DNA from: Neisseria chenwenguii
Lineage (GTDB): Bacteria > Pseudomonadota > Gammaproteobacteria > Burkholderiales > Neisseriaceae
DNA: 64,000 nucleotides
Assembly (NCBI RefSeq): GCF_002216145.1
Contig: NZ_CP022278.1
Location: forward strand, 1,612,001 to 1,676,000
Direction of reading: 5' to 3'
Shown: positions 33,901 to 40,039 of the stretch, in pieces
Layout of the letters: every line of letters begins with the position of its first letter
Numbering within the stretch: position 1 is the stretch's first letter
Notes under the pieces: generated by a model
Databases searched by the model: none
The model's input: only the letters and a program-made list of their open reading frames with translations
Told to the model about the DNA's origin: nothing
Position numbers and translations under genes: made by a program

Positions 33901-34432
33901 ATGAACGAATTTGACTTTATCCGATCCGCCGCTATCTGCAAAAGCAGCAGCACGATGCCGAACTGCTGCTCGGTGACGGTGCGGCGGTTATCCGCCCGCG
34001 CATGGGGTTCGATTTGTGTTTCGGTGGCGATATGTTGTTGAAAGACAACCATTTTTTTTGCCGATGTTTCGCCGGAGGATTTGGCTTGGAAAGTATTGGC
34101 GGTAAACATTTCCGACATGGCGGCGATGGGTGCGAAACCGCGTTGGGTGCTGTTGAGCGCAGGATTGCCGGAGTTGGATGAAGACTGGCTGGCGCGTTTT
34201 TGCGGCAGTCTGTTTGAACTGGCGGCACGTTTCGGCGTGGTGTTGATCGGCGGCGATACAACCCGCGGCGATTTGGTGTTTAACGACACCATTATTGGTG
34301 AGCTCCCCAGTGGCCGAGCCTTGCGCCGTGATGCGGCGGAATGCGGCGACGATGTTTGGGTGTCGGGCAGGGTGGGGTTGGCGGCGGCGTTGCAATGCCG
34401 TCTGAAAAAAATTGCGCTGCCGTCAGATGCCT
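33901..34432 (+). pseudogene. thiL: thiL, 5' part (disrupted)
   Basis: Thiamine-monophosphate kinase makes thiamine diphosphate. The first residues MNEFDFI are followed by a tandem duplication ATCCG-ATCCG (33919-33928). This shifts the frame and leads to TGA at 34039. The next segment, which should contain the GDGAAVI metal/ATP site, is out of frame. A run of eight T (34052-34059), one more than expected, restores the frame. DLAWKVLAVNISDMAAMGAKPRWVLL and GGDTTRGD can then be read to about 34432. There the sequence stops resembling ThiL, and it resumes at about 35485. Confidence 0.88.
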
Positions 34433-34433
34433 T

Positions 34434-34727
34434 TTCCTTTATTTTGCCACATTCACAAGCCTATGAAAAAGGCAAAAAGATTGTGGAAAAAATGAAACAT
34501 TTAATCCCACGCAAACTTTATCCAATGCCCGTGCAATCTATCGTTGAGAATAAAGTTATTGCCCGAGAAGATATTCCGCCACTACGCAAAAGTGTCACAG
34601 GAGAAGGCTTTTCAGGTAGTCTTTCCAAGAAAAAACGCACAGCGAAGAAAATAAACAACGCCAACGTAAATTAGGCAATGCAGATGTGCCACAATCAGCA
34701 TTTCATGCGATTTTGAATTTGGATTAG
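34434..34727 (+). pseudogene. C-terminal LepA/EF4-like remnant in the thiL insert
   Basis: The frame reads AYEKGKKIVEKMKHLIPRKL, then VENKVIAREDIPPLRK and SLSKKKRTAKK. After a one-base slip near 34655, a shifted frame gives QRQRKLGNADVPQSAF followed by HAILNLD and TAG at 34725. This order is that of the EF4/LepA C-terminal domain, and only that domain is present. It is A+T-richer than the flanking thiL and has no start of its own. It is probably passenger DNA brought in with the next gene. Confidence 0.65.
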
Positions 34728-34828
34728 TTGAAAAAAATCTCTTTTAGATTGCATAGTTAGAATCTGAATGGGACCTTGCGGAAATATTTAAGCAACTCGC
34801 ATAGCAAAACAGTAAAAAAATCAGTGGA

Positions 34829-34843
34829 ATTTGACCGCTTGCA
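34829..34843 (-). other. Pasteurellaceae Apl-type uptake signal-like sequence
   Basis: The minus strand reads GCAAGCGGTCAAATT. The Actinobacillus/Mannheimia (Apl) uptake signal core is ACAAGCGGT, usually followed by C and an A/T-rich flank. Eight of nine core bases match, and the TCAAATT flank fits. No neisserial DUS is seen inside the insert. Confidence 0.6.
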
Positions 34844-34864
34844 ACATCAAAAGAAGGAGTTTTT

Positions 34865-35428
34865 ATGGCGATTGTGTCAGTACCAGTAGAAAAATCATAC
34901 CGATTATTAAACATCGGAGCGACGACCTTGGTGTCGGCAAAAGCGGAAGGCATTGAAAACGTGATGGCGGTGGCGTGGTCGTGTGCCTTGGATTATGGGG
35001 CGTTATCGAAAGTCACCACCGTGTTGGATAAACAGGCGTTCACCCGTGGCTTGGTGGAAAAGAGCGGTCTGTTTGCTATTCAAATTCCCGTGGCAAATCA
35101 GGCGGAATTGGTACTCAAACTCGGCACCACATCACGCCATACCGACCCACATAAATTAGACGGCGTGGAGATTTTCTACCAAGACGGTTTCGATATTCCG
35201 CTCGTCAAAGGCTGTGCTGGCTGGATTTTATGCGAACTGATACCAAGCGAAGACAACCAACAAAACCACGATCTCTTCATCGGCAAAGTTATCGCCGCCT
35301 ACGCCGACGACCGAGTGTTCAAAGACAACCATTGGATCTTCGACCAAGCCCCGAATGAGTTAAGAACCTTGCATTATGTGGCGGGCGGGCAGTTTTATTT
35401 GATTGGGGAAGGGGTTGAGGCGGAGTAA
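34865..35428 (+). CDS. Flavin reductase-like FMN-binding protein
   Basis: This 187-residue intact protein has a flavin-reductase-type split beta-barrel: SYRLLNIGATTLVSAKAEGIENVMAVAWSCALDY, LVEKSGLFAIQIPVANQAELV, TSRHTDPHKLDGV and a late GCAGWILCELI. Such proteins transfer reducing equivalents through FMN. AAGAAGGAG lies 7 bp before the ATG. The gene is the only intact one in the thiL insert and differs from its neighbours in base composition. It is followed by a GTAGGGTGGG repeat. It is probably of Pasteurellaceae origin (see the uptake-like site 22 bp upstream). Confidence 0.75.
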   Translation: MAIVSVPVEKSYRLLNIGATTLVSAKAEGIENVMAVAWSCALDYGALSKVTTVLDKQAFTRGLVEKSGLFAIQIPVANQAELVLKLGTTSRHTDPHKLDGVEIFYQDGFDIPLVKGCAGWILCELIPSEDNQQNHDLFIGKVIAAYADDRVFKDNHWIFDQAPNELRTLHYVAGGQFYLIGEGVEAE

Positions 35429-35432
35429 TGAA

Positions 35433-35456
35433 GTAGGGTGGGTTTGCTAACCCACC
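35433..35456. repeat. GTAGGGTGGG repeat at the right edge of the insert
   Basis: GTAGGGTGGGTTTGCTAACCCACC is a self-complementary unit with the GTAG head, related to 6242-6334. It marks the end of the foreign segment, about 30 bp before thiL homology resumes. Confidence 0.65.
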
Positions 35457-35484
35457 AATTCAAATATTTTAGGAAAACTAGAGA

Positions 35485-35914
35485 TGTCTTTACTGAATGT
35501 GAAAACGAGCTGCTGCGTCCGATGCCGCGTGTGGCGTTGAGCGGGGCGATCTTGCCGTTTGCGCACGCCGCGCTGGATGTTTCAGACGGCCTCGCGCAGG
35601 ATTTGGGGCATATTTTGAACGCTTCGGGCGTGGGCGCGGAAATCTGGACGGAACGGCTGCCGACGCTGCCGGCGCTGAAAACGGCGTTGACCGCCGAGCA
35701 ATGGTTTGCCTGCACACTGGCAGGCGGCGACGATTACGAGCTGGTGTTTACCGCGCCCGCGTCCTATCGCGAGGCGGTATCGGCGGCAGCAGAACGCAGC
35801 GCCACGCCGGTGGCGCGCATCGGTAAAATCAACGGCACAGGCCGTCTGAAAATTTTGGATTCAGACGGCCGCGAAATCAAACTGACTCATTTGGGATTCG
35901 ATCATTTTGGCTGA
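35485..35914 (+). pseudogene. thiL: thiL, 3' part (disrupted)
   Basis: From about 35485 the frame reads VFTECENELLRPMPRVAL, then HAALDVSDGLAQDLGHIL, LAGGDDYELVFT and GREIKLTHLGFDHFG, the ThiL C-terminal domain with the substrate-binding DVSDGL and GDDYEL motifs. Left and right junctions share a short GATGxCTTT match (34427 and 35485), which could be recombination microhomology. It overlaps the pgpA start by 8 bp, as an intact thiL-pgpA pair would. Confidence 0.88.
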
Positions 35915-38137: not shown

Positions 38138-40039
38138 ATGTCTAGCCTACTTTCTTCCATTGGTAATACCACTATTAATAATAACAAGGTAAATCATTAT
38201 AAAACCTATCAACACAATCAATACGGCAAATACATCGATGTCGAAGATTTCGGTGCCGACCCGACGGGTAGAAAAGACAGTTCGGCCGCCATCAATGCCG
38301 CGCTGGAAGCCGCGCATAAAGAAAAAGCCATGCTCTATATGAAAGGCACGTTTTACATCTCCGAACAGATTGCCATCGACGCCGGCACCTCGGGTGTCAA
38401 AGGCATTTTCGGTGCGGGCATGGATAAAACCGTGATTAAGTTTAACAAAGCGCAAAAAGGCGTGTTCAACTCAAACTCCAACAACGACGACATCCGCGAA
38501 TACGCCGGTATTCTGATTGACGGGCAAAACCGCAAAACCGTCGCCGATTTGTCGGTCGAATACACCGGCAGCGATTTTTACCGCAAAGGGCAGAGCTATT
38601 TCGGCAAAGTCACCGGCATTTTGGTCAACGACGCCGACAACACCTTAATCAGCAAAGTCGAAGTTTCCGGTGCCAACCGCGCGGGCGTCCACTTCACCTC
38701 CACCGCCTCGCAAATCCACGAAAACGGCCACCGCCTGACTTTTAAAGAGCGCGTCGCCGGCGGCCAGCTCGACGAAAACGACGCCAACGTCCCCTTGGGA
38801 GAAAACAACCGCATCGTCGATTCCAACCTCCACCACAACCGCGTCGCCGGCGTCTTGGTCGCCTATCAGAAAAACTTTACCGCCGACGGCAACTATCTGG
38901 CCTGGAACGGCCACAAAGCCGACGGCGGTACCGGCTACGGCATCGCCACCATGGCGGGCAGCTACAACTATGGCGTGACCTACAAAAACAACACCACCGA
39001 CCACAACTACCGCAAAGGATTAGACGTACACGACGGCAACAACATCCTGATTGCCAACAATATTTCCAACGGCGACCGCCTTTACGGCATCGCCGTTTAC
39101 AACCGCCAGTTTTATATGGACGACGTCAAAATCATCGGCAACACCGTTACCCAAGACAAAAATTTCCGCCTTGCCGCCGACGACAATCCCGGCCTGAGCT
39201 ACCATATGTATTCAGGCATCCAGCTCCAGACCAACACCCAGTTTAAAAACCTGCCCGGCGACGGCGACGGCTATTTCAAAATCAGCAACAACACCATCAA
39301 AGGTTTGGATGTTTACAAAGACGACATCCAAACCTACGGCATCGAGTTCCGCAACCACGAAAAGCAGATGGATTACACCCTGAACATCACCAACAACAAC
39401 ATCAGCGGCGATTCCACCAAATATCTGGTTGCCGTCATCAACGACACCCGCAACGGCATCGGCTCGGGCGACATAAACATCAGCGGCAACAAAGCCGACA
39501 TCGGCAGCATCGGCAAAGGTGCTTCTCCGGTTTACATTGACGAACGCAATTCGGACAAACTCGGCCTCCACGGCTCCGTGACCGTCAACGGCAACAGTAT
39601 CAGCGTGCGCGATGCCGCCGACGGCTACAACGACTTTGCCTTCCTGCGCGGCAACGCCGAAACCTACAACATAACCCGCAACAAACTGAATTACGGCGAC
39701 AACATCGACCGCACCCTCGTCGAAGTGCGCGGCACCGGACGGCTGGATTCCGACGTCAACGTCGCCGGCAACCAGTTCAACTCGTCCGACGAAAGCTTCA
39801 ACGACGCACGCTACGGCGGCTGGCTCAAATACCAAACCGCCGACGTTTTTTCAGACGGCAACAGCCACAACAGCGCCAAACTCGCCGCCCTCGACACCGG
39901 CAGCCGCGGCATGACCCTGCTCGACGTTTACACCAGCGTCCTCCACACCGTCAACACCGCCCAGCAAGCCGAATATTCCGCCAATGCCGCAGCAGTCAGA
40001 ATCAATGACGACAGCGCGGGTAACGGCTCGGTTTATTAA
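38138..40039 (+). CDS. Right-handed beta-helix protein, C5-epimerase/pectate-lyase-like
   Basis: This 633-residue protein has no signal peptide or membrane segment. From residue 33 it reads IDVEDFGADPTGRKDSSAAINAAL and GTFYISEQIAIDAG, then GIFGAGMDKTVIKFN, the N-terminal cap and first turns of the pectate-lyase/AlgE superfamily. Many Asn-ladder turns follow to about residue 560 (NNRIVDSNLHHNRVAGVLVA, NNTTDHNYRKGLDVHDGNNI, NNIISGD-type). No RTX Gly-Asp repeats follow, unlike AlgE epimerases. Without a signal peptide it is cytoplasmic or exported by a non-Sec route. Substrate is unknown, probably a polysaccharide. Confidence 0.75.
   Translation: MSSLLSSIGNTTINNNKVNHYKTYQHNQYGKYIDVEDFGADPTGRKDSSAAINAALEAAHKEKAMLYMKGTFYISEQIAIDAGTSGVKGIFGAGMDKTVIKFNKAQKGVFNSNSNNDDIREYAGILIDGQNRKTVADLSVEYTGSDFYRKGQSYFGKVTGILVNDADNTLISKVEVSGANRAGVHFTSTASQIHENGHRLTFKERVAGGQLDENDANVPLGENNRIVDSNLHHNRVAGVLVAYQKNFTADGNYLAWNGHKADGGTGYGIATMAGSYNYGVTYKNNTTDHNYRKGLDVHDGNNILIANNISNGDRLYGIAVYNRQFYMDDVKIIGNTVTQDKNFRLAADDNPGLSYHMYSGIQLQTNTQFKNLPGDGDGYFKISNNTIKGLDVYKDDIQTYGIEFRNHEKQMDYTLNITNNNISGDSTKYLVAVINDTRNGIGSGDINISGNKADIGSIGKGASPVYIDERNSDKLGLHGSVTVNGNSISVRDAADGYNDFAFLRGNAETYNITRNKLNYGDNIDRTLVEVRGTGRLDSDVNVAGNQFNSSDESFNDARYGGWLKYQTADVFSDGNSHNSAKLAALDTGSRGMTLLDVYTSVLHTVNTAQQAEYSANAAAVRINDDSAGNGSVY

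Follow-up and report, generated by a model that had tools for sequence, protein, structure and literature searches.

A foreign insert, probably captured from Pasteurellaceae DNA, divides thiL in Neisseria chenwenguii

The thiL gene of Neisseria chenwenguii is divided by a foreign insert of 1,057 bp, and no thiL bases have been lost. The insert lies within the stretch of DNA that was analysed here (64 kb, hereafter the window) and carries an intact flavin-reductase-like gene with Actinobacillus-type relatives, a credible uptake signal before this gene and the C-terminal remnant of a divergent LepA/EF4 paralogue. Taken as a whole, the findings make it probable that DNA of an unsampled member of the Pasteurellaceae, from the Apl (Actinobacillus-type) uptake group, was captured into thiL at a short microhomology. 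The features are collected in Table 1.

Table 1. Features of the split thiL gene and of the insert, with positions in the window.
Feature	Position	Strand	Evidence
thiL 5' part, left of the insert	33901..34425	+	AIRS domain (Pfam); TIGR01379 pieces below cut-off; alignment with 19 intact relatives
Foreign insert, 1,057 bp	34426..35482	.	Flanks read through when joined; site empty in 19/19 same-genus loci
Left junction 9-mer GATGCCTTT, codes DAF as the LepA paralogue does	34426..34434	+	Sequence comparison
Divergent LepA/EF4 paralogue, C-terminal remnant, frame change near its end	34426..34728	+	LepA_C E 3.9e-19
Candidate Apl-type uptake signal GCAAGCGGTCAAATTC, 2 mismatches to ACAAGCGGTCAAATTT	34827..34842	-	String match, profile score, position
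Flavin-reductase-like gene, intact, 187 aa	34865..35428	+	Flavin_Reduct E 3.9e-14; relatives; tree
Palindrome GGTGGGTTTGCTAACCCACC in the right end of the insert	35437..35456	+	Sole window copy at <=2 mismatches; 0.00 expected
Right junction 9-mer GATGTCTTT, codes DVF of thiL	35483..35491	+	Sequence comparison
thiL 3' part	35483..35914	+	AIRS_C E 1.5e-8; TIGR01379 165-320

The split thiL gene and the thiamine pathway

The initial annotation had placed a break in ThiL homology at about 34430 to 35485. This break is real: the last thiL-like base is at 34425 and the first one again at 35483, and the joined flanks give an uninterrupted ThiL reading. Same-genus thiL loci were taken from a search of 24 other members of the genus, and in all 19 that were read (L004-L022) thiL is a single open frame without the insert; an intact thiL in sister strains had been named at first as a finding that would support the capture. 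In the window thiL is also out of frame 5' of the insert and part of a conserved motif is missing, so that, together with the insert, the gene has become a pseudogene through more than one lesion. The GC content is 0.57-0.60 in thiL and 0.34-0.39 in the parts of the insert other than the reductase gene; within the insert, the LepA remnant (0.39) differs from the reductase (0.50). The genome is a single 2.5-Mb contig with a completeness of 100 and a contamination figure of 0.14.

Inside the insert the Pfam scan covered the reductase and LepA frames, and it recovered both the EF4/LepA C-terminal remnant and the intact flavin-reductase-like gene that had been read from the sequence at first. Promoter-like and terminator-like sites within the insert did not exceed chance level. 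Near the palindrome, stretches of 25-32 bases match three Pasteurellaceae-family genomes (G126, G148 and G150) and one Neisseria genome (G023). Elsewhere in the window, a 633-aa open frame (38138-40039) was judged by eye to be a candidate right-handed beta-helix protein, pectate-lyase- or epimerase-like.

A search of the whole genome with the ThiL model (TIGR01379) found no place that passes the cut-off; below it were the two parts of the divided thiL and a single weaker hit. This hit falls in a 344-aa frame that is probably PurM. A second thiL was discarded, none being over the cut-off. Two TPP riboswitches in the genome score over the cut-off. One stands before a run of thiM, thiD and thiE, all of which exceed their cut-offs. 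The second is found 5' of a cytX frame (L128 928-1758, at about 664.9-665.8 kb of the genome) that matches profile positions 298-385 of 386, below the cut-off; as only its end fits the model, cytX looks internally deleted from its sequence. With thiM, thiD and thiE open and thiL broken, thiamine salvage is open as far as thiamine phosphate and the kinase acting on this product is broken. A thiamine gene has thus been interrupted, probably by a foreign capture, while thiE, thiD and thiM stay open.

The reductase gene and the uptake signal before it

The reductase frame gave a full-domain match to PF01613 with a score of 53.5 (gathering score 27), and none of the NCBIfam equivalogs reached its own cut-off on it. 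In a scan of the collection, which gave 5 relatives among 80 candidate stretches, the protein was 90% identical to that of Actinobacillus genomosp. 2 and 86% identical to that of A. ureae, the next relatives being those of Rodentibacter mrazii (59%), a Cardiobacteriaceae MAG (57%) and a Burkholderiaceae MAG (45%). When at most three candidates per genome were scored, 51 of 140 Pasteurellaceae-family genomes had some DNA match to the insert, and 8 of the 140 matched almost the whole reductase gene with 77-79% DNA identity. After the Actinobacillus-type loci, further reductase loci reached at most 66% protein identity. Among the Neisseriaceae, 10 of 83 genomes matched the reductase, the own genome counted; seven of the matches were full-length with 53-59% identity, one had 25%, and one (G016) was a 53-residue piece with 64%. 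This last frame (L030 529-990, G016:C55), from another Neisseria, is 64-66% identical to the reductase of the insert over its last 53 residues and is possibly another remnant or capture.

In a tree of 26 rows the window reductase fell inside an Actinobacillus-type clade of 8 rows, itself included, with a support of 100/100; its exact place inside this clade is unsure (82/37). The tree was made with 25 homologues and left out A. ureae, the match of which is in two pieces, as well as several further Pasteurellaceae and Neisseriaceae loci. The Pasteurellaceae kinship proposed for the gene is therefore upheld by both the tree and the identities, which are 86-90% to the Actinobacillus-type proteins and at most 59% to the near-full-length Neisseriaceae ones. 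The nonsynonymous distance to four clade members was 0.06-0.07, and the synonymous distance was 4.4 for one pair and beyond measure for the other three, that is, near saturation. The GC3 of the gene is 0.59, as compared to 0.34-0.43 in its clade. With a DNA identity of 77-79% and synonymous sites near saturation, the gene came either from a member of the group that has not been sampled or by an old transfer, after which it drifted towards its new host. The insert had no match in phage records; in plasmid records, 8 gave partial reductase matches covering 12-19%, and nothing was confirmed for the reductase in viral contigs.

The initial annotation had also reported an Apl-type uptake signal. 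As a bare string this was not significant, as the window has 2 matches with at most 3 mismatches to ACAAGCGGTCAAATTT and 1.03 are expected. We scored the window with a profile made from 35 distinct sites of 15 Apl-type loci, some of which share genomes. The signal scored 22.6, the top of the window, with the runner-up place at 15.7; the profile's own sites scored 8.8-36.6 with a median of 28.5, so the window signal is below the median. On the plus strand, the distance from the first base of CCGCTT to the reductase start is 30 nt in the window, G110 (L052) and Actinobacillus genomosp. 2 (L034); in G113 it is 46 nt. In 7 of the 11 reductase loci examined, no Apl or Hin core was found in the same orientation within 70 nt of the start. 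The top profile score and the position before the reductase start, and not the bare string, are the reason why the signal is credible as judged from sequence, and this position looks inherited. The signal had been placed on the minus strand, which was correct, and at 34829-34843, which was one base off the 16-base match. Separately, in G123 (L057) the place at -30 that the Apl core takes in Apl-type relatives is occupied by a Hin-type core in the same orientation, as though one signal type had replaced the other at this site.

The Apl type is described by Redfield et al. 2006 (PMC1626085) as ACAAGCGGT with AT-rich flanking repeats. Likewise, the window has the same CAAGCGGT core followed by AT-rich bases and a score in the range of the known Apl sites, but 8 of the 9 core bases are matched (GCAAGCGGT), the first being G rather than A.

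The neisserial uptake tag (DUS) GCCGTCTGAA has 116 copies in the window, with 81 of the variant AGGCCGTCTGAA and 15 of ATGCCGTCTGAA. As had been noted at the outset, the insert contains none of them, GCCGTCTGAA being absent between 34407 and 35580; this is weak evidence, because 19 of the window's 115 gaps between neighbouring DUS copies equal or exceed it in length. One DUS (34397-34406) lies 20 bases before the left joint; its position is unchanged in L004-L006, so that it predates the insert.

The LepA remnant and the junctions

The remnant corresponds to positions 493-567 of the LepA model, with a second piece in another frame. Of 61 Pasteurellaceae-family genomes, 60 had a LepA with 34-39% identity to it, and the remaining one, Actinobacillus genomosp. 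2, had no match. Its identity to the LepA of the host was 35%, as compared to 53% over 75 residues for a LepA on the Rhizobium plasmid pMK-3 (QDG94611.1). The remnant is ruled out as a Pasteurellaceae lepA and as a copy of the host gene by these identities, and the Pasteurellaceae origin that had been assigned to it was not borne out. Other plasmid LepA proteins were 48% (Nicoliella) and 42% (Leuconostoc) identical to the remnant. When LepA was searched across the class, 1e-15 was passed by 3 of 369 genomes in addition to the own one, with 41-44% identity. With the end of the paralogue as query, 138 of 140 Pasteurellaceae-family genomes gave one LepA match and 2 gave none, with identities of at most 42%; a second LepA was found in none of the 140. 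No match to the remnant, or to a two-row alignment of the LepA paralogue, was confirmed in viral contigs.

The motifs DAF, KLYPxPxQ, VIAREDIPPLRK and GFxGSLS are common to the remnant and to the pMK-3 paralogue, the one reference sequence of this comparison, and are missing in the six ordinary LepA proteins compared. The pMK-3 protein is at most 51% identical to LepA from other plasmid records, the exception being an incomplete copy (97%) on pMK-2, another plasmid of this strain. This Rhizobium strain has the divergent paralogue on both plasmids (L110 1519-3309, CP041206.1; L135 2501-3712, CP041205.1, the partial copy), adjoining a MarR gene and with efflux (RND) genes nearby. A paralogue of the pMK-3 kind would be a full-length GTPase beside a MarR gene, whereas the window has a broken C-terminal piece with thiL upstream and no MarR gene in the insert. 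The passages on LepA seen of PMC4342817 mention no such bacterial paralogue. As the remnant is unlike the LepA of Pasteurellaceae, the choice is between an unsampled donor and a mosaic insert.

The order of a LepA-like piece and the reductase, which had been expected in the donor, was not recovered: blastn with the insert against 12 kb around the reductase (G110, G112, G113, G138 and L034) matched the reductase, with short stray matches. When at most three candidates per genome were scored, all parts of the insert in order were not found in one donor genome, and the reductase alone matched.

The two junctions share GATGxCTTT, as had been claimed, and the exact joints can slide within this motif. 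GATGCCTTT and GATGTCTTT are identical in 8 of 9 bases; across the window, 15 of 62,800 positions have such a match (9 bases, no more than one mismatch) at a distance of 1057. Because DAF is conserved in the LepA paralogue, the left 9-mer was assigned to the incoming DNA. Of the two parents of this match, the thiL side is observed and we infer the donor side from the DAF of the paralogue. From the sequence, the left copy most likely arrived with the foreign DNA, which would make the 8/9 match a microhomology and not a target duplication. No inverted repeats were found at the ends of the insert (19-21 mismatches in 30).

Origin of the insert and comparison with known exchange

In the reading that we favour, this Neisseria would have taken up DNA of an Apl-group Pasteurellaceae that has not been sampled, presumably by transformation, and joined it into thiL. 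The left joint would have been guided by the 8/9 bases that thiL GATGTCTTT has in common with GATGCCTTT of the incoming LepA-paralogue fragment, and the right joint would have been made at the same thiL position, which accounts for the absence of any loss of thiL sequence. The donor uptake signal would be a passenger and not the tag that Neisseria recognises. The reductase gene probably came with its leader; it stays open while thiL carries further lesions, and may still be in use. A capture of Pasteurellaceae DNA in thiL, as first proposed, is thus favoured by the kinship of the reductase and signal, by the intact relatives, by the low GC of the parts outside the reductase and by the joints. 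Against it stand the origin of the LepA remnant, the GC3 and synonymous distances of the reductase, the 7 of 11 loci with no core before the gene, the G at the first core base and the unsure place within the clade. A single donor for all parts may be assumed in this reading, but it is possible, if somewhat doubtful, that the insert was put together as a mosaic in two or more steps. Pasteurellaceae would then have supplied the signal and reductase, and the LepA scrap would be of different origin, perhaps plasmid-borne; thiL would have received the two already combined. The identity of the remnant to pMK-3, the single LepA of the Pasteurellaceae-family genomes and the GC difference between remnant and reductase are consistent with this; on the other side, in an unsampled donor the reductase could be preceded by a degenerate LepA paralogue, and the stretch between 34728 and 34864 shows no break in composition that would prove a joint.

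An unlikely variant is that the insert entered as a small circle by a single crossover at the nine near-identical bases (Campbell-like illegitimate integration), carrying a scrap of a mobile EF4 paralogue family; such an entry would leave the target whole, flanked by a hybrid repeat. In the searches made, this family was seen only on the plasmids of one Rhizobium strain. A clean insertion with the target whole and a 9-bp near-repeat at both ends would also suit a transposon-like element that duplicated 9 bp of its target, after which one of the copies mutated. We consider this quite improbable, since the ends lack inverted repeats and the left 9-mer codes the DAF of the LepA paralogue, which a target copy would fit only by chance. 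That the insert belongs to Neisseria itself, as native DNA or as a locus long present in the genus, is very improbable: although full-length reductase relatives exist in seven other Neisseriaceae genomes of 83, besides the 53-residue piece, they are much more distant than Actinobacillus, the tree sets the window in the Actinobacillus-type clade and the insert is missing in all 19 relatives. An assembly artefact or contamination that put foreign DNA into thiL is hardly credible given the single contig and its quality figures, a thiL that picks up again exactly where it was broken off, and an insert with at most 79% identity to any sampled genome.

Uptake tags are thought to separate the two competent families. 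Under the favoured capture from Pasteurellaceae, a piece with the donor tag at its ancestral place and with both joints legible would be a natural record of this barrier being crossed, and the tag and joints are unusually readable for a cross-family capture. The transfer had been described as a clear one between uptake dialects, and the readable signal and joints agree with this; it is less clear-cut in that the nearest sampled genomes are only 77-79% identical and synonymous sites near saturation. No literature naming this locus was found by title or start of abstract, which does not prove its absence. Chromosomal gene exchange between Haemophilus and Neisseria was reported in 1998 (Kroll et al., PNAS 95:12381; cited in PMC2397512, PMC7371117 and PMC3630211). 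According to the passages seen of PMC3630211, exchange between N. meningitidis and H. influenzae is rare, and the Pasteurellaceae tag on DNA did not lead to significant transformation of N. meningitidis. In view of the 1998 report, the present insert is a clear and well-marked new case of an already known kind. As far as the cited passages describe it, the Haemophilus-Neisseria exchange likewise placed genes of one competent mucosal family inside the other. On what the citations convey, the insert in thiL differs in that it points to an Apl-group donor, has kept the signal before the gene and interrupts a gene at a short shared sequence.
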